A stretch of 64,000 bases of DNA from Thermogemmata fonticola (lineage in GTDB: Bacteria > Planctomycetota > Planctomycetia > Gemmatales > Gemmataceae). Each line of letters starts with the position of its first letter. Within the stretch, counting starts at the first letter, position 1. Positions 9,061-52,779 of this stretch are shown piece after piece. The position numbers and the translations under genes are program-made. The notes under the pieces are model-generated. The model was not told where the DNA came from. It saw only the letters and a program-made list of their open reading frames with translations, and searched no databases. The DNA lies in the NCBI RefSeq assembly GCF_013694095.1, contig NZ_JACEFB010000003.1, forward strand, positions 186,001-250,000, in the 5' to 3' direction.

Positions 9061-9090
9061 CCTCATCCCCTCTGGAAGGGGTGGATGAGG
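9061..9090 (+). terminator. intergenic hairpin after the M28 gene
   Basis: CCTCATCC at 9061-9068 pairs with GGATGAGG at 9083-9090, extended by further C/G pairs with one bulge. There is no T-run. It covers the ATG at 9085, which argues that translation of the next gene starts at the GTG at 9112. Confidence 0.45.
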
Positions 9091-9111
9091 AGAAGAGGAG
9101 ACCAGCCAACC

Positions 9112-10413
9112 GTGCAATTCCCGCTTGTTCAACTGGTGCGCCAAATCGCTCCGCAACCGGAGATTGCTGACGTATCGATGGCGGTCCAAGAGGCGTGGCA
9201 CCGGTCCCGCACCTTAGATCGCATCCGTCCGGGCATGCGGATTGCTGTGGCGTGCGGCAGCCGAGGAATCCGCCATTATCTGACCATTGTCCGCGCCACT
9301 TTGGCCGTGTTACGCGAACGGGGAGCCAACCCTTTCATCGTAGCGGCCATGGGGTCGCATGGCGGAGCAACCTCCCAGGGCCAACGCGAGTTGCTGGCGA
9401 GTTATCAGATCGACGAGGTCCATTTAGGTGTTCCCGTCCTGACCGATATGGAGACCGTGTGTATCGGTCACAACTCCTGGGGTCAGCCCGTTTGGTGGGA
9501 TCGCAACGCTTTGTCAGCGGACGGTGTGGTGACAATCTCCCGCGTGAAACCCCACACGGATTTCCGAGGACGGTTCGAGAGCGGCATCCTCAAAATGCTG
9601 GTGATTGGCTTAGGAAAGCGTCAGGGCGCCGACCAGGTCCACAGTTTCGGGACCCGCGGCCTACGGGACATGATGCCGGAATCAGCCAAAGTGATCCTGG
9701 AAAAAACTCCTTTCCTGGGCGGTTTGGCCATTTTGGAAAATGCCCGTGAAGAGACAGCTCACGTCGAAGTCGTCGACCGCGAGGACCTTTGGGAACGGGA
9801 ACCGCAACTCTTGGAACAGGCCCGGCAGTTGATGGGTCGCATCCCCTTCTCGGCCCTAGATGTGTTGATCGTGGGCGAATGTGGCAAAAATTACTCCGGG
9901 GCTGGGTTGGACCCGAATGTCGTGGGTCGCATGCTCATCGAGGCTTCGCCAGAAATGGAAACGAATGTGCCTCGGATCACACGTATCGGTCTGCTCGATG
10001 TCTCCCCAGAAAGCCACGGGAACGCCACAGGAATCGGCATTGCCGATCTGACCACCACGCGGGCGTTGGCAGCCATCGATCCGTTGCCTTTCCGAATGAA
10101 CAATCTGACCGCCCGCTTCCTCTGGCGAAGCAAATTACCTTTGGCCTTCGACACCGATCGGGAAGTTATCGCCGCTTGCCTGCAAACTTGTTGGCAACCT
10201 CAACTCGATCAGGTCAAGCTTTGCCTGATACCCAACACCTTAGAGGTGGCGGAACTGTGGGTCTCTGCCCCCTTGGCCGAGGAAGCTCGCCAGCGTTCCG
10301 ACTTGGAACTGGTTGGCGATCCGCAACCGTTGCCCTTCGATGAAACGGGCCGACTCCTCCAGGAGAAACTCTTTCCCCACTCGGTACGTGCCCGTCGGCA
10401 AGTCCACCTATGA
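9112..10413 (+). CDS. LarA-like / DUF2088 domain protein
   Basis: 433 residues from the GTG at 9112, which follows a purine-rich AGAAGAGGAG site; an ATG at 9085 is in frame but its codons would be the ribosome binding site itself. The N-terminal half matches the lactate-racemase N-domain fold (DUF2088): a glycine-containing nucleotide-like turn ACGSRGI, AAMGSHGG around residues 80-87 and SRVKPHTDFRG around 146-156. Known LarA enzymes use a nickel-pincer cofactor to epimerise 2-hydroxy acids. The substrate here and the presence of the cofactor-binding Lys and His residues cannot be confirmed by reading. No lar maturation genes (larB, C, E) are nearby, so the function may differ. An uncharacterised family member is the safe call. 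Confidence 0.75.
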   Translation: MQFPLVQLVRQIAPQPEIADVSMAVQEAWHRSRTLDRIRPGMRIAVACGSRGIRHYLTIVRATLAVLRERGANPFIVAAMGSHGGATSQGQRELLASYQIDEVHLGVPVLTDMETVCIGHNSWGQPVWWDRNALSADGVVTISRVKPHTDFRGRFESGILKMLVIGLGKRQGADQVHSFGTRGLRDMMPESAKVILEKTPFLGGLAILENAREETAHVEVVDREDLWEREPQLLEQARQLMGRIPFSALDVLIVGECGKNYSGAGLDPNVVGRMLIEASPEMETNVPRITRIGLLDVSPESHGNATGIGIADLTTTRALAAIDPLPFRMNNLTARFLWRSKLPLAFDTDREVIAACLQTCWQPQLDQVKLCLIPNTLEVAELWVSAPLAEEARQRSDLELVGDPQPLPFDETGRLLQEKLFPHSVRARRQVHL

Positions 10414-10431: not shown

Positions 10432-10460
10432 TTGCCCCTGTCTGTGGATAAAGCTAGCAT
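10432..10460 (+). promoter_or_regulatory. putative promoter upstream of the c-di-AMP riboswitch
   Basis: TTGCCC at 10432-10437 and TAGCAT at 10455-10460, 17 bp apart, each 4/6 to the sigma70 consensus, ending about 20 bp before the conserved RNA begins. Confidence 0.4.
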
Positions 10461-10479
10461 GGAGATGAACCGAATGGAT

Positions 10480-10618
10480 CGGCGCTGCCGCGATAAGTCG
10501 CCGAATCCATCTGCATGAAGCAGGTGGAACGGGGGACCTCAAATACCGGGCGAATCCTGAACGATCAGGAGGGGGTAACTCGGCTCCTAGCCCAAACTAG
10601 CTAACCCCGTAGGCGTCC
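10480..10618 (+). ncRNA. ydaO/yuaA-type cyclic di-AMP riboswitch
   Basis: The leader contains the conserved blocks of the ydaO class in order: CGCCGAATCC (10499-10508), GGGGGACC (10531-10538), CGGGCGAATCC (10547-10557), a GGGGGTAACT block (10570-10579) and the diagnostic AGCTAACCCCGTAGGCG (10599-10615). This class binds cyclic di-AMP and usually turns off genes for potassium uptake, osmolyte transport or cell-wall enzymes. The gene directly downstream encodes an APC transporter with a universal-stress domain, the expected type of target. The motif match is by eye. Confidence 0.85.
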
Positions 10619-10666
10619 GAGGACATCGCAGGAGCGGCGTGTGTAAACAACAGCCCACCTCGATTT

Positions 10667-10689
10667 GCCGACCGTGTGGAGCGGTCGGC
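10667..10689 (+). terminator. hairpin between riboswitch and transporter, possible expression platform
   Basis: GCCGACCG (10667-10674) and CGGTCGGC (10682-10689) form a perfect 8-bp stem with a 7-nt loop, about 50 bp after the riboswitch core and 45 bp before the ATG. No T-run follows, so it may act through translation or factor-dependent termination. Confidence 0.4.
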
Positions 10690-10734
10690 CTCGGCGCTGG
10701 TCTGCTGCCATTGTCAGACAGATAGCACTACTTT

Positions 10735-12531
10735 ATGGAGATCAGTCAAGGGCATCGGCCCCGCGAACTGCGCTGGTATCATGCCGGTGCGATGCTCTTT
10801 GGGGATTGGGGCACCAGCCGGCTTTACGTTCTCGGCCTTTGCTTTTTCTATGCCCGCCATGCCTCGATTTGGTACATGTTGGCCATGTCCCTGTTGTTGC
10901 TCGGCATCGGCTGGGCCTACCAAGTCATCTGCCGTCTGTATCCGGATGGTGGCGGGGTGTATACCTCGGGCCGATTACGGCATCCTTTACTAGGCGTCTT
11001 AGGCGGCCTGCTTTTATTCGCAGATTACACGGTGACAGCAGCCGCCTCGGTCTTCGACGCCTTTCATTACCTCCGCTTGGATTCCCCTCATCTCTGGGCC
11101 ACCGGGTGCCTATTGCTTCTGGGGGTGGTCAACCTCTTCGGACCGCGTAAATCCGGCAATGGCGCCCTCGTCGTCGCCCTTAGCGCTGTGGTAATCACTC
11201 TGGTGATCGCGCTGGCCACCCTCCCTCGCATGCCGTATCTGGAAGTCGAGCGCCCCGCTGGCGGTCCCGGGCAGTGGTGGATGCACTTTACTTTCATCAT
11301 CCTAGCGATCTCTGGAGTCGAAACGATAGCCAATCTGACCGGCGTCATGGTTCTTCCCGTCGAAGGAACATCGCGCCGAGCCATTTATCCTGTTGTGCTT
11401 GAAATTGCCATTTTCAATGTGATCATGTGTATAGCAATGCAAGCTGTCCCTCTCTCCATTCTCGGTGACGGAAACCCTGAGATGGCTTACACCGCCCACC
11501 GCGATGACATGCTCCGTTTGCTGGCCGAATACTATGTCGGTCCGTTTTTTGCCTTTGCCGCCGCCATCGTTTTTGCGTTAGTGCTCATTTCGGCGGGAAA
11601 TACCGCACTGGCGGGACTGGTCAGCCTCCAATACATGATGGCACGCGACCGGGAACTGCCTCACCTCTTTGCCGGGCTGAACGCTTACGGGATGCCCGTG
11701 TTACCCTTGTTACTTGCTGTGCTTCTGCCTGCGACCCTTATATTGCTCTTTCCTGACATGGCCGCTTTGGCGGACCTTTACGCTATAGGAGTAGTGGGAG
11801 CCGTCACGATCAATCTGCTGACCACGGCTTCCAACGGCCAACTCACTATCTGCCGTGGCGAACGCCTTGGTTTAGGCGGCTTAGGCCTGTTGATGGGGGC
11901 GATTGCTATTACAATCGCGGTAGAAAAACCCCATGCTCTAATGTTTGCTCTCAGTATTATTCTAGGCGGGTTTACGTTGAGAAGTTTGCGACGTTCGCCC
12001 TACTTCCAAACGTGGTGGCATCGTTATCGTCCGATTTTTCTGCCGTCGCCACCTGCTTCACCAGGCCACTTGGAAAGTGGTACTCCCCTGCACTCGGCAG
12101 CGGGAACTGTTCCTCGGACGCCTCCACGCATCCTGGTCGCCACGCGCGGCAATCCCGGTTTGCTTCGCTTCGCCGTTGAAGAGGCCCGCAACCGCCAAGC
12201 CGAGTTACTCGTCCTGTTTGTGCGGCAATTGGCTGTCATCCCCATGGGATCCGTGACAACACCGAATTGGACCGAAGATGAAGAAGCTCAAGCCTTATTT
12301 AAGGAAGCCCGGACCCTAGCACAACCCATGGGCATTATTGTGCGGCCGTTGTACGCTGTCACGTATGATGTTGCGGAGGCCATCCTCGAACTGGCCGTGA
12401 CGTATGGGGTGGACTTGCTCATTCTCGGTGTCTCCCAACGGGGCCGTCTCGATCGTCTCATGAAAGGTGATGTCATCCAGCAGGTGGCTCAATACCTACC
12501 GGAACGAATCACCCTGTTGATCCACGCCTGA
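10735..12531 (+). CDS. APC-superfamily transporter with C-terminal universal-stress domain (KimA-like)
   Basis: 598 residues. Residues about 12-430 are a polytopic membrane domain of about 12 helices of amino acid-polyamine-organocation type; the first helix begins at a GAMLFGDWGTSRLYVLG segment and helix 6 carries an ISGVETIANL motif. Residues about 455-598 form a cytoplasmic UspA-like domain (RILVATRGN, then LILGVSQRGRLDRLMKGD, which resembles the nucleotide-binding loop). The same architecture occurs in KimA-type potassium transporters and other permeases. The c-di-AMP riboswitch in the leader supports a role in potassium or osmolyte uptake that is shut down at high c-di-AMP. An amino acid permease remains possible. 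Confidence 0.82.
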   Translation: MEISQGHRPRELRWYHAGAMLFGDWGTSRLYVLGLCFFYARHASIWYMLAMSLLLLGIGWAYQVICRLYPDGGGVYTSGRLRHPLLGVLGGLLLFADYTVTAAASVFDAFHYLRLDSPHLWATGCLLLLGVVNLFGPRKSGNGALVVALSAVVITLVIALATLPRMPYLEVERPAGGPGQWWMHFTFIILAISGVETIANLTGVMVLPVEGTSRRAIYPVVLEIAIFNVIMCIAMQAVPLSILGDGNPEMAYTAHRDDMLRLLAEYYVGPFFAFAAAIVFALVLISAGNTALAGLVSLQYMMARDRELPHLFAGLNAYGMPVLPLLLAVLLPATLILLFPDMAALADLYAIGVVGAVTINLLTTASNGQLTICRGERLGLGGLGLLMGAIAITIAVEKPHALMFALSIILGGFTLRSLRRSPYFQTWWHRYRPIFLPSPPASPGHLESGTPLHSAAGTVPRTPPRILVATRGNPGLLRFAVEEARNRQAELLVLFVRQLAVIPMGSVTTPNWTEDEEAQALFKEARTLAQPMGIIVRPLYAVTYDVAEAILELAVTYGVDLLILGVSQRGRLDRLMKGDVIQQVAQYLPERITLLIHA

Positions 12532-12637: not shown

Positions 12638-13252
12638 TTACTTCAACGCTTTGATCCACTGCTCGAAGCTCTTGTAATGCTTCTCCACAACCGGGGCCGG
12701 ACCACTGAAACGGATATGGGTAGCCTCATCTTTTTCCACCACAATCACCCAGATGGCGCGATAATTCTCCAGGATCATCTCCTTTGAGGAGGGGTCCTTA
12801 GGCCGCTCGCGGTACTTCCACGTTCCCTGAATATCCAGATAGTGCGCTTTGGCTGCGGGCAACTCCCAAACGCCAACACGGCTGATGTCAGACAGCGTCT
12901 TACCTTCTGGAGGCACAAACTGAGCCTGCCAGCGCGGGAAGTTCTTTTCCGGACTGGGATGGCTCTCCGGATAGATTGCGATTTCCGCATCGGGAAGTCC
13001 GCTCCCTCCAGGCAAGCGGAACTGATAAGAGCGCAAACGGTTGCTGGGCTTCTCATTCTTCCATGCCTCTGGTGCCACAGCAGAGAGCTTGCCGACTTTG
13101 ACCACAACCGGCTTTTGCGCTGAATCCTCCGATGTGGCCTCAGCCCCCGTACCGATGGCTTCGATCATCAAGACCCACCCTAACACACTGGCACATCCCC
13201 CCAACCTGAACACAACTCCGACCCATCCCATAGCATTGACCTCCGGCATCAT
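12638..13252 (-). CDS. secreted protein of unknown function
   Basis: 204 residues from the ATG at 13252, placed 5 nt behind an AGGAG site; a GTG at 13258 overlaps that site and is less likely. An N-terminal hydrophobic segment (about 8-35) looks like a signal peptide. The rest is a soluble domain of about 160 residues with PEAWKNEKPSNRLR early on and a C-terminal helix VEKHYKSFEQWIKALK. The pattern of a tryptophan-rich beta domain after a signal peptide is often seen in planctomycete hypothetical proteins, but I cannot name the family. It is the last gene before the convergent end of the transporter gene, 106 bp away. Confidence 0.7.
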   Translation of the reverse strand: MMPEVNAMGWVGVVFRLGGCASVLGWVLMIEAIGTGAEATSEDSAQKPVVVKVGKLSAVAPEAWKNEKPSNRLRSYQFRLPGGSGLPDAEIAIYPESHPSPEKNFPRWQAQFVPPEGKTLSDISRVGVWELPAAKAHYLDIQGTWKYRERPKDPSSKEMILENYRAIWVIVVEKDEATHIRFSGPAPVVEKHYKSFEQWIKALK

Positions 13253-13602
13253 GAACACTCCTGTAATTGATGGACACCCGTGGATTTGGGTGTGCCCCTA
13301 CCTTGCCTCTCAGCGAGCATCGAACACCTGATGCTCACGTCCGAGTTCTGAACAGGCAGTCGCTCCAAGGATCGTTCCCGCTCCTTGGTTCTTTCTGACT
13401 CCACTCTGTCCAGCATCGGTAAGACGCTCTAGTAGCTCCCGCAGTTCGCCATTTCGCAAACCAAAAGCATTGTGTTTCCTCTCGGTTCTCGTCCGCGCCA
13501 CTTCCTTCCGAACATTTTCGCAGGAAGCCCCCTGGAATGACCTCGACAACGGCATTCCCGCTTGCTCACAACCTCCTCTTTTTTTCCCCACGGCAGCACC
13601 GT
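13253..13602. other. intergenic region with three consecutive short hairpins
   Basis: No coding signal. Three perfect small inverted repeats follow one another: ACACCC/GGGTGT (13274-13293), GAGCATC/GATGCTC (13315-13336) and CCAAGGA/TCCTTGG (13365-13388, followed on the plus strand by TTCTTTCT). The region separates two minus-strand genes. It may hold a small structured RNA or terminators; no known RNA family was recognised. Confidence 0.35.
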
Positions 13603-49897: not shown

Positions 49898-50003
49898 TCC
49901 AAGCTTCCCTTCCTGTCAAACAAATGCCCCGCGGCGGATGAACCTAGGCCGGGGGCGGACGCACCAGAACATCGCGCTGCGGGAACGCTCCAGTTCTTGG
50001 CAG

Positions 50004-50077
50004 CAGGAGCGGAGGGACTCGAACCCCCAACCGGCGGTTTTGGAAACCGCTGCTCTACCAAATTGAGCTACGCTCCT
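50004..50077 (-). tRNA. trnW: tRNA-Trp (CCA)
   Basis: Acceptor AGGAGCG pairs with CGCTCCT, the anticodon stem GCGGT/ACCGC encloses TTCCAAA with anticodon CCA, and the T arm has GGTTCGAGTCC. Discriminator base G. No CCA tail is encoded. It sits between tuf and secE. Confidence 0.95.
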
Positions 50078-50350
50078 GTTCCTCCTCCAGGCCAAACGGA
50101 AGAGGGCTTTCTGCTGATATCCTATTCGGCGAGCCAAAGCCGGTGGAACCGTTCGCTAGTGACGCGACCTCTGCCAGCAAACCTTCGCCGTAGGAACGTC
50201 GGGGTGAAAAGGGCCGAACTCCCTCACTTTACGGGACTCCCATGGTCGCATATCTCGCTCCCCTAGGAGGGCCAAACCAGGGAAGCGGACTTCCCCTTTC
50301 ACCCTTTGGCTACAGATGTCGTAAACCCGGCTGGCTCCTGGAGGAATGCG

Positions 50351-51646
50351 TTATGCCAGAATCTTGGTGACGACGCCGGAACCAACGGTGCGCCCACCTT
50401 CCCGGATGGCGAAGCGGAGGCCTTCATCCATCGCAATGGGGGTGATCAATTCCACAGTCAGTTTGACGTTGTCACCGGGCATGCACATTTCCGTGCCAGG
50501 CGGCAGAGTAATGGTGCCGGTCACGTCCGTTGTGCGGAAGTAGAACTGCGGCTTGTAGTTGCTGAAGAAAGGGGTGTGGCGTCCGCCTTCCTCCTTGGTC
50601 AGCACGTACACATTCGCCTCGAACTTGGTGTGAGGCGTGATGCTGCCGGGTTTGGCAACCACCATGCCGCGCTCCACTTCCTTCTTTTCGATACCGCGGA
50701 GGAGCACCCCAACGTTGTCCCCGGCGATCGCTTTGTCGAGGGTCTTGTTGAACATTTCGATCCCGGTGATCACCGATTTGAGGCTTTCCTTGCGCAGACC
50801 GATAATTTCCACCGGGTCGCCCATCTTGGCGGTCCCCCGCTCGACGCGCCCTGTGACCACCGTCCCGCGGCCTTCAATGGAGAACACGTCTTCGATGGAC
50901 ATCAGGAACGGTTTGTCCTCCTCGCGTTGCGGCACAGGGATGTAAGTATCCAGAGCAAACATGAGGGCGTCGATGGAACGGGTGCCATCGTTATCGCTGG
51001 TGTAGTTGTCGAGGGCTTCACGGGCCCGGCCATAGATGATCGGGATGTTCTCGCCGTCGAACTCGTATTTGCTGAGCAACTCCCGCAATTCCATCACGAC
51101 CAACGGGATCAACTCCGGGTCCGCCTTGTCGCACTTGTTGAGGTAGACCACGATATTGGGAACACCCACTTGCTTGGCCAAGAGGATGTGCTCGCGGGTC
51201 TGAGGCATAGGGCCGTCATCCGCAGCGACCACGAGGATGGCCGCATCCATCTGAGCGGCCCCAGTGATCATGTTCTTGATGTAGTCGGCGTGGCCAGGGC
51301 AGTCGATGTGGGCATAATGGCGGCCCTTGATCGGTTGGGAAAAGTCCAGCTTCTCCAGCCCCGGATAGTCCATCAGATGCTTGAAGGGCAGGGCATCCGC
51401 ATTGGGGTAGGAACGATCATCTGTCTCGTACTCCACGTGGGAAACGGCAATGGTCACCGTCTTGTTGGCATCCCGGACGATGCCACCCTTAGCGATCTCC
51501 GCGTAGGACTTGAATTCCTTGAGGTTGTGCAAATAGGCATTGCGGGCCAGGATCGCCGCGGTCAGGGTCGTTTTGCCGTGGTCGATGTGCCCGATGGTTC
51601 CCACATTGACGTGTGGCTTGGTACGCTCGAAAACTCCTTTGGCCAT
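50351..51646 (-). CDS. tuf: elongation factor Tu with an insertion next to switch I
   Basis: 431 residues from the ATG at 51646 (GGAGAG upstream), about 30 longer than usual. G1 is GHIDHGKT (19-26), G3 is DCPGH (115-119), G4 is NKCD. The switch I region lacks the usual ARGITI; instead [21 protein letters not shown] occurs at 54-74 (its Thr 65 aligns with the conserved switch I threonine). Between HVEYET (70-75) and RHYAHID (109) there are 33 residues where normal EF-Tu has two. Domains 2 and 3 are standard ([25 protein letters not shown]). EF-Tu carries aminoacyl-tRNA to the ribosome. The tRNA context supports this as the main tuf gene. Confidence 0.97.
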
Positions 51647-51835
51647 CGTACTCTCCGCGTGAGAAATAAGGGTTGGCAAAGCGCTCCTGCTCCTTTCCCG
51701 CAGGACAGGGTGACGCTTCGTCGGTCCACAGTTACGGGTTGACCCGCCGCAGGCCGGTGCGACTCATCGACCCGCAGCCCTCTCCGTCAGGCAGCCACTG
51801 GAATATCTTCCGGCAGCCCCACATCGAGAGGCAAG

Positions 51836-51908
51836 AGCTGCTGATGGGACTTGAACCCACGACCTCCTCCTTACCAAGGAGGTGCTCTACCAACTGAGCT
51901 ACAGCAGC
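51836..51908 (-). tRNA. trnT: tRNA-Thr (GGT)
   Basis: Acceptor GCTGCTG/CAGCAGC, D arm TAGCTCAGTTGGTAGAGC, anticodon stem CCTCC/GGAGG around TTGGTAA with anticodon GGT, T loop GGTTCAAGTCC. It lies 189 bp upstream of tuf, as in the thrT-tufB arrangement. Confidence 0.95.
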
Positions 51909-52097
51909 AGGGTCGGCCACAAAGGCAGTTCGGGGCTTCCCTCCCGGTCGCCGAGTTTACTCCTGAGCTTACCCACACGAAGCAATGCAGTGCTCAATGG
52001 CCTTGCATGGTCTCTCCATTAGCTGCGGCCATGTTTTTGTTCGACCTCAACACAGGCGTTGGAGCCAGTGATAAGGCGAGGGCTTGCATCTGGCCAG

Positions 52098-52169
52098 AGC
52101 GGGCGACGGGATTTGAACCCGCAACCTCCAGCTTGGAAGGCTGGAGCTCTACCGTTGAGCTACACCCGC
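52098..52169 (-). tRNA. trnG: tRNA-Gly (TCC)
   Basis: Acceptor GCGGGTG/CGCCCGC, anticodon stem CCAGC/GCTGG around CTTCCAA with anticodon TCC, T arm GGTTCAAATCC, discriminator T as usual for tRNA-Gly. Confidence 0.95.
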
Positions 52170-52296
52170 ATCCAATCCCGGCAGGGCGCCTTGCCTCGCT
52201 GGTTGTCCCGGCTGAGGCCTTTTACTGCCCAACGCCCCATCCTTGTTTAGGTAGGACATTAGACACATCTGGAGCCTTACCAGGAACCAACTTCAA

Positions 52297-52380
52297 TGGG
52301 CAGGGAGGGATTCGAACCCCCGAAGGCCATAGGCCGCCAGATTTACAGTCTGGTGCAATTGACCGCTCTGCCACCTGCCC
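52297..52380 (-). tRNA. trnY: tRNA-Tyr (GTA)
   Basis: 84 nt with the long variable arm of bacterial tRNA-Tyr (CGGCCTATGGCCTTC region). Acceptor GGGCAGG/CCTGCCC, anticodon stem CCAGA/TCTGG around CTGTAAA with anticodon GTA, T arm GGTTCGAATCC, discriminator A. Confidence 0.95.
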
Positions 52381-52707
52381 CTGCTTCTGCTACCGTGTCT
52401 CTTTTCTTCTCCTCTTGTTACACTTCCCAACTCAACCGCAATCCCCATCCTAATCGCTTGGCTCCCCACAGAGGGTGGCGGATGTAATACTCTATCGATT
52501 TCAATGCTCCGCGTCTAGTCCCTACTAGGCTGCTCTGCTGGCGACCTATGCCCCCTGCATCAGTCGGCATGTGCGTAATAGTTGGGGGGGCTCGGAGGAT
52601 GCGCCAAACCGTTCGACCCGATCATCTTCATCCTGAATCCCCGTCTTCAGAAGCCTTCTGTTGTACGACGGGACTAGCTGGGTCTATCTCGCCATGCCCC
52701 CTGCGAA

Positions 52708-52779
52708 AGCTCGCGGTGGGATTCGAACCCACGACCTGCGGTTTACAAAACCGCTGCTCTACCGCTGAGCTACACGAGC
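52708..52779 (-). tRNA. trnT: tRNA-Thr (TGT)
   Basis: Acceptor GCTCGTG/CGCGAGC with one G-T-type pair, anticodon stem GCGGT/ACCGC around TTTGTAA with anticodon TGT, T arm GGTTCGAATCC. First tRNA of the tuf cluster, matching the thrU-tyrU-glyT-thrT order. Confidence 0.95.

Follow-up and report, generated by a model that had tools for sequence, protein, structure and literature searches.

The locus considered here raises the question of whether the leader of a membrane transporter gene in Thermogemmata fonticola is a riboswitch for c-di-AMP and, if so, what kind of uptake it controls. Control of potassium uptake by c-di-AMP is best studied in Firmicutes. In the window, by which we mean the whole stretch of 64,000 nucleotides that was analysed, we consider it likely that a ydaO-class c-di-AMP riboswitch lies in the leader of a KimA-like K+ importer with a USP-type domain and acts as an OFF switch. 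The features concerned are collected in Table 1.

Table 1. Features of the leader and of the transporter gene (positions of the window)
Feature	Position	Strand	Basis
Weak candidate promoter, TTGCCC (10432), 17 nt, TAGCAT (10455), 8/12	10432..10460	+	Inspection
ydaO/yuaA (c-di-AMP) riboswitch aptamer	10489..10630	+	RF00379, 51.8 bits, full-length
P1 5' strand CGCC, partner GGCG at 10612-10615	10499..10502	+	Rfam alignment
P2 5' strand ACGGGG, partner CCCCGT at 10605-10610	10529..10534	+	Rfam alignment
P2-P3 junction, 5' side, diverged; 2-bp helix of the model impossible	10536..10547	+	'vv' marks in Rfam alignment; relatives and 4QLM sequence aligned
Pseudoknot strand CTCGG, partner CCGAG at 10617-10621	10579..10583	+	Inspection
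P2-P3 junction, 3' side, AAACU replacing the usual 3-nt GNC	10594..10598	+	Unique among inspected aptamers
Conserved block AGCTAACCCCGTAGGCG, P2 and P1 3' strands	10599..10615	+	Sequence position
Possible alternative helix, P1 3' and pseudoknot strand (10612-10622) with CCTCGGCGCT (10689-10698)	10612..10698	+	Ligand-free minimum-energy fold
8-bp expression-platform hairpin without T-run	10667..10689	+	Folding, terminator scan, positions
598-aa APC-superfamily KimA-like transporter, membrane helices at about residues 14-435	10735..12531	+	Pfam; AlphaFold2 model, pLDDT 88; Foldseek, VIA-align 2
C-terminal USP-fold cytosolic domain, residues 465-597	12127..12525	+	PF00582, E 9e-14; alpha/beta domain in model

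The Rfam covariance model RF00379 (ydaO/yuaA) matched the leader over its full length (model positions 1-134) with 51.8 bits, the gathering score being 38 bits; the E-value is 4.1e-9 when the whole 64-kb window is searched and 2.3e-11 when the search is confined to the local stretch. An Rfam scan of the 4.8-Mb genome gave this match as the sole ydaO RNA. An earlier note on this DNA had placed ydaO blocks at 10480-10618 and had proposed a check with this model; the match is significant and contains the conserved block, although the start of the RNA is closer to 10489 than to 10480. Judged from the Rfam alignment and the positions, the window aptamer retains the capacity to form helices P1 to P5 as well as the pseudoknot. 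The loop-tail pseudoknot is known from the ydaO crystal structure (PMC5393176), and in 80 relatives the complementarity between loop and tail is longer than in shuffled sequences.

Both strands of the same P2-P3 junction are altered in the window aptamer. Its linker from CCC to AGCUAACC is AAACU (5 nt), compared with 3 nt in all of the approximately 95-100 other aptamers inspected. G-N-C precedes AGCUAACC in all 34 other Gemmatales aptamers and in nearly all of those inspected beyond Gemmatales, where AAC and TGC were each seen once; a few inspected aptamers have small changes inside AGCUAACC, their linker length still being 3 nt. This GNC linker is a feature conserved in the relatives seen, lies outside the Rfam threshold and was not used for class membership. 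No other transporter-linked ydaO RNA scores as low as the window aptamer. Since the junction is altered on both strands, c-di-AMP binding may be altered and affinity may be lowered, so that the aptamer is, to judge from its sequence, possibly weakened by a change at a normally fixed spot.

How the aptamer would act on the gene is less plain. A promoter consensus scan demanding at least 9/12 matches reported none, the candidate in Table 1 having been found by inspection. The 8-bp hairpin that the earlier note had described upstream of the gene is present where it was placed, and a terminator scan found no T-run after it; the sole terminator-like site found (10769-10791) lies within the coding region. 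A classic intrinsic terminator was rejected as the output, because the hairpin has no T-run and almost none occurs in the leaders of relatives. The output step is therefore probably not intrinsic termination, as the earlier note had suspected. In the ligand-free fold, the P1 3' and pseudoknot strand pairs instead with 10689-10698, a pairing that would exclude the folded aptamer. This duplex (-26.0 kcal/mol, z -2.5) was reached by 2% of shuffles in a wider segment and by 15% in a narrower one, and it was not found conserved in the leaders of relatives; given this dependence on segment width, we suggest only weakly that it might be the switch, working through translation or Rho-type termination. 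For the window copy we infer which ligand is bound, in which direction control acts and that K+ is the substrate: high potassium would lead to high c-di-AMP, whose binding would stabilise the aptamer (P1 and pseudoknot) and thereby lower expression of the importer.

In the transporter gene, Pfam recognised AA_permease_2 at residues 40-356 (E 2e-14) and Usp at residues 465-587 (E 9e-14), in agreement with the reading of the earlier note as an APC permease with a UspA-like tail. Searches against solved structures yielded no related transporter with the single sequence, and only USP proteins, again no transporter, with a profile of seven sequences. A family profile of 43 sequences aligned with Bacillus subtilis KimA in hhalign with 98.9% probability (E 2e-17) in local mode and 99.6% (E 5e-24) in global mode; an hhalign run against one single Kup sequence gave no alignment and is uninformative either way. 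Three KimA entries are the best fold matches of the AlphaFold2 model (Foldseek E 8e-18 to 1e-14; VIA-align 2 Z 41-45, the value of 45 being reached over 505-520 residues). The next matches are other APC transporters, with Z 31-38, and thus the substrate is not fixed by the fold alone. Whole-chain superposition on KimA gives an rmsd of 12-13 Å, which is taken to reflect the placement of domains.

The K+-coordinating residues of KimA include D36, Y43, T230 and Y377 (PMC10284832). In the profile alignment, KimA D36, Y118, S125, T230, N237 and Y377 correspond to D24, Y98, S105, S193, N200 and Y349 of the window transporter, the replacement of T230 by S193 being conservative; KimA Y43 corresponds to Y31 through the shared D-x6-Y spacing only, the profile alignment having a gap there. 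The Pfam KUP model PF02705, run on the host genome, did not match the transporter, and its one hit there, of 9.6 bits, is to an unrelated stretch at another place; we therefore call the protein KimA-like, the term used in the earlier note and upheld by the profile match, the top-ranking KimA structures and the retained K+-site residues, and not a member of Pfam's K_trans. From its sequence and model, the transporter is a probable potassium importer.

A scan of the genome collection with the single transporter protein found no homologous loci, and a profile scan found 80, in Planctomycetota, Omnitrophota, Verrucomicrobia and others. Among the 58 transporter-homologue loci scanned with Rfam, 17 have a ydaO RNA over the cut-off upstream on the same strand (61-96 bits); these are from Planctomycetota, Omnitrophota and one Latescibacterota record. 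The ydaO RNA of locus L100 lies about 1 kb from the transporter, and two further loci outside the Rfam scan (L094 and L154), one of them in Verrucomicrobia, carry a ydaO motif. Locus L102 has two ydaO RNAs, at 7-195 and 2388-2535, one of which directly precedes the transporter. The recurrence across phyla, together with the KimA profile and fold match and the retained K+-site residues, leaves control of a potassium importer at the RNA level well supported; the earlier note had proposed that import of potassium or an osmolyte is limited in this way.

More widely, ydaO RNAs were found in 27 of 102 Gemmatales genomes and in 46 of 392 genomes sampled from the phylum; some loci belong to more than one set, and the totals of downstream genes given here are approximate. 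Apart from the window, the phylum sample holds 50 ydaO loci, which precede KimA relatives (15), window-type transporters (6), SPFH genes (3) or genes unmatched by the references (26); Pfam, applied to 10 of these 26, identified eight TrkH and two Kup proteins. The 35 Gemmatales ydaO RNAs, the window included, precede 20 SPFH/band-7 genes, eight genes of an APC-USP type of about 900 aa, three of the window type (the window's own among them), two KimA genes and one other APC-like gene, with one having none. Eight ydaO RNAs (L042, L046, L049, L051, L054, L059, L062 and L064) precede the APC permeases of about 900 aa, whose first helix carries a D-x6-Y motif and whose match to Usp is weak. The SPFH/band-7 genes fall into two types with lengths of about 712 and 380 aa, the aptamer of L034 preceding a 712-aa gene. 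They are not obviously concerned with potassium transport, and ydaO RNAs before SPFH genes in Gemmataceae are harder to explain by a potassium logic.

The earlier note had also proposed a search of the genome for a diadenylate cyclase, and one DAC domain is present (PF02457, E 3.9e-20, over the cut-off; G000:C1:513587-513964). With this domain and the RF00379 match, neither of the two outcomes that the note had named as refuting its reading was obtained. Classical diadenylate cyclases have DGA and RHR motifs; this sole cyclase keeps the catalytic DGA and has RHL in place of RHR. The domain is of a weaker-scoring type that is found in most Gemmatales. As to degradation, the HD domain of PgpH-type phosphodiesterases, the type looked for, was not found in the genome. 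A TrkH-type K+ protein is also encoded.

In a genome of the same genus the transporter is present at 71% identity, a ydaO RNA and residual ydaO sequence are both absent, and the upstream neighbour of the gene differs. In the window, the upstream gene (9085-10413) is a relative of nickel-pincer-dependent isomerases (NCBIfam group 22, E 3e-148). Downstream of the transporter is a small gene (12638-13258, reverse strand) whose apparent orthologue lies upstream in the same-genus locus (L084, 2141-2764, reverse strand), which amounts to a rearrangement. Elsewhere in the window, five tRNA genes form a cluster at 50003-52779 on the reverse strand.

Because the transporter exists without ydaO in the same genus and the window aptamer has diverged, two points that the earlier note does not have, loss of control within the genus is a real rival to the riboswitch reading. 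The RNA would then be a decaying relic that binds poorly, the transporter being expressed without it, and the weak promoter, the different gene order in the relative and the change on both strands of a near-invariant junction would all fit. P1 to P5 and the pseudoknot nevertheless remain formable and the score is well over the cut-off, and we think such decay rather unlikely. The same junction could instead belong to a natural ydaO variant with one functional pocket, in which the rebuilding has changed affinity, ligand number or ligand identity while the RNA still controls a K+ importer where a sister species lacks the switch. A coordinated change on both strands with the helices kept is what such a variant might show, but it is seen in a single sequence and the downstream gene is of the usual K+ type, and we consider such a variant very unlikely. 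The transporter, for its part, might import an amino acid or another osmolyte, as its Pfam label AA_permease_2 and the amino-acid transporters of the same fold, not far behind KimA by structure, would allow; with KimA ranking first, the K+-site residues kept and K+ uptake systems behind other ydaO RNAs in the phylum, this substrate appears improbable.

The earlier note further proposed a direct effect of c-di-AMP on the protein, exerted via the USP domain. KimA is itself controlled by c-di-AMP at both the RNA and the protein level (PMC10284832), the USP domains of KdpD bind c-di-AMP through the motif (A/G/C)XSXSX2N(Y/F) (PMC8214093), and the USP domain of the window transporter aligns with the cytosolic domain of KimA in the whole-chain fit. 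The cytosolic domain by which c-di-AMP inhibits KimA is, however, described as PPAT-like, not USP (PMC10284832). The KdpD-type motif is absent from the transporter, there being no SxS in residues 461-598, and the USP ATP motif G-X2-G-X9-G-(S/T) is half lost, G565 and G578 being kept, Q568 standing for the second Gly and D579 for the S/T. The c-di-AMP contact Arg337 of KimA is His310 in the profile alignment, and KimA HNQS (579-582) aligns by eye with GDVI; KupB also lacks an equivalent of Arg337, yet is still inhibited (PMC10284832). With these motifs and contacts missing, direct control of the protein is possible but unsupported, and we regard it as doubtful.

Comparison with known systems places the locus as follows. 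Staphylococcus aureus KdpD likewise has a USP fold on a potassium-related membrane protein, but its c-di-AMP-binding motif is the one absent here. The ydaO riboswitch of Corynebacterium glutamicum nlpC resembles the window RNA in having no canonical terminator and is argued to be translational (PMC9960051), whereas it controls a cell-wall peptidase and the window RNA precedes an ion importer. KimA, a KUP-type K+/H+ symporter (PDB 6S3K, 8B70 and 8B71), shares with the window transporter the LeuT-fold membrane domain, the K+-coordinating residues and a C-terminal alpha/beta cytosolic domain; it differs in sequence (about 17-18% identity), in the replacement of Arg337 by His, and in that the cytosolic domain of the window protein is a recognisable USP (PF00582). 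The B. subtilis ydaO/kimA riboswitch offers a close parallel, with the same RNA class, a KimA-type K+ importer downstream and the pseudoknot kept, but the window RNA has no visible intrinsic terminator, a P2-P3 junction diverged on both strands and a planctomycete host. In the open literature searched, no paper on ydaO control of K+ uptake in planctomycetes was found; our survey suggests that in these bacteria the class serves genes for TrkH, Kup, KimA and a relative of KimA with a USP tail. With a sister genome that has no ydaO for comparison, the divergence of this aptamer could serve as a natural experiment on the junction bases required for switching. The placing of ydaO before a K+ importer is an established type of control, and it is met with repeatedly in many planctomycetes.
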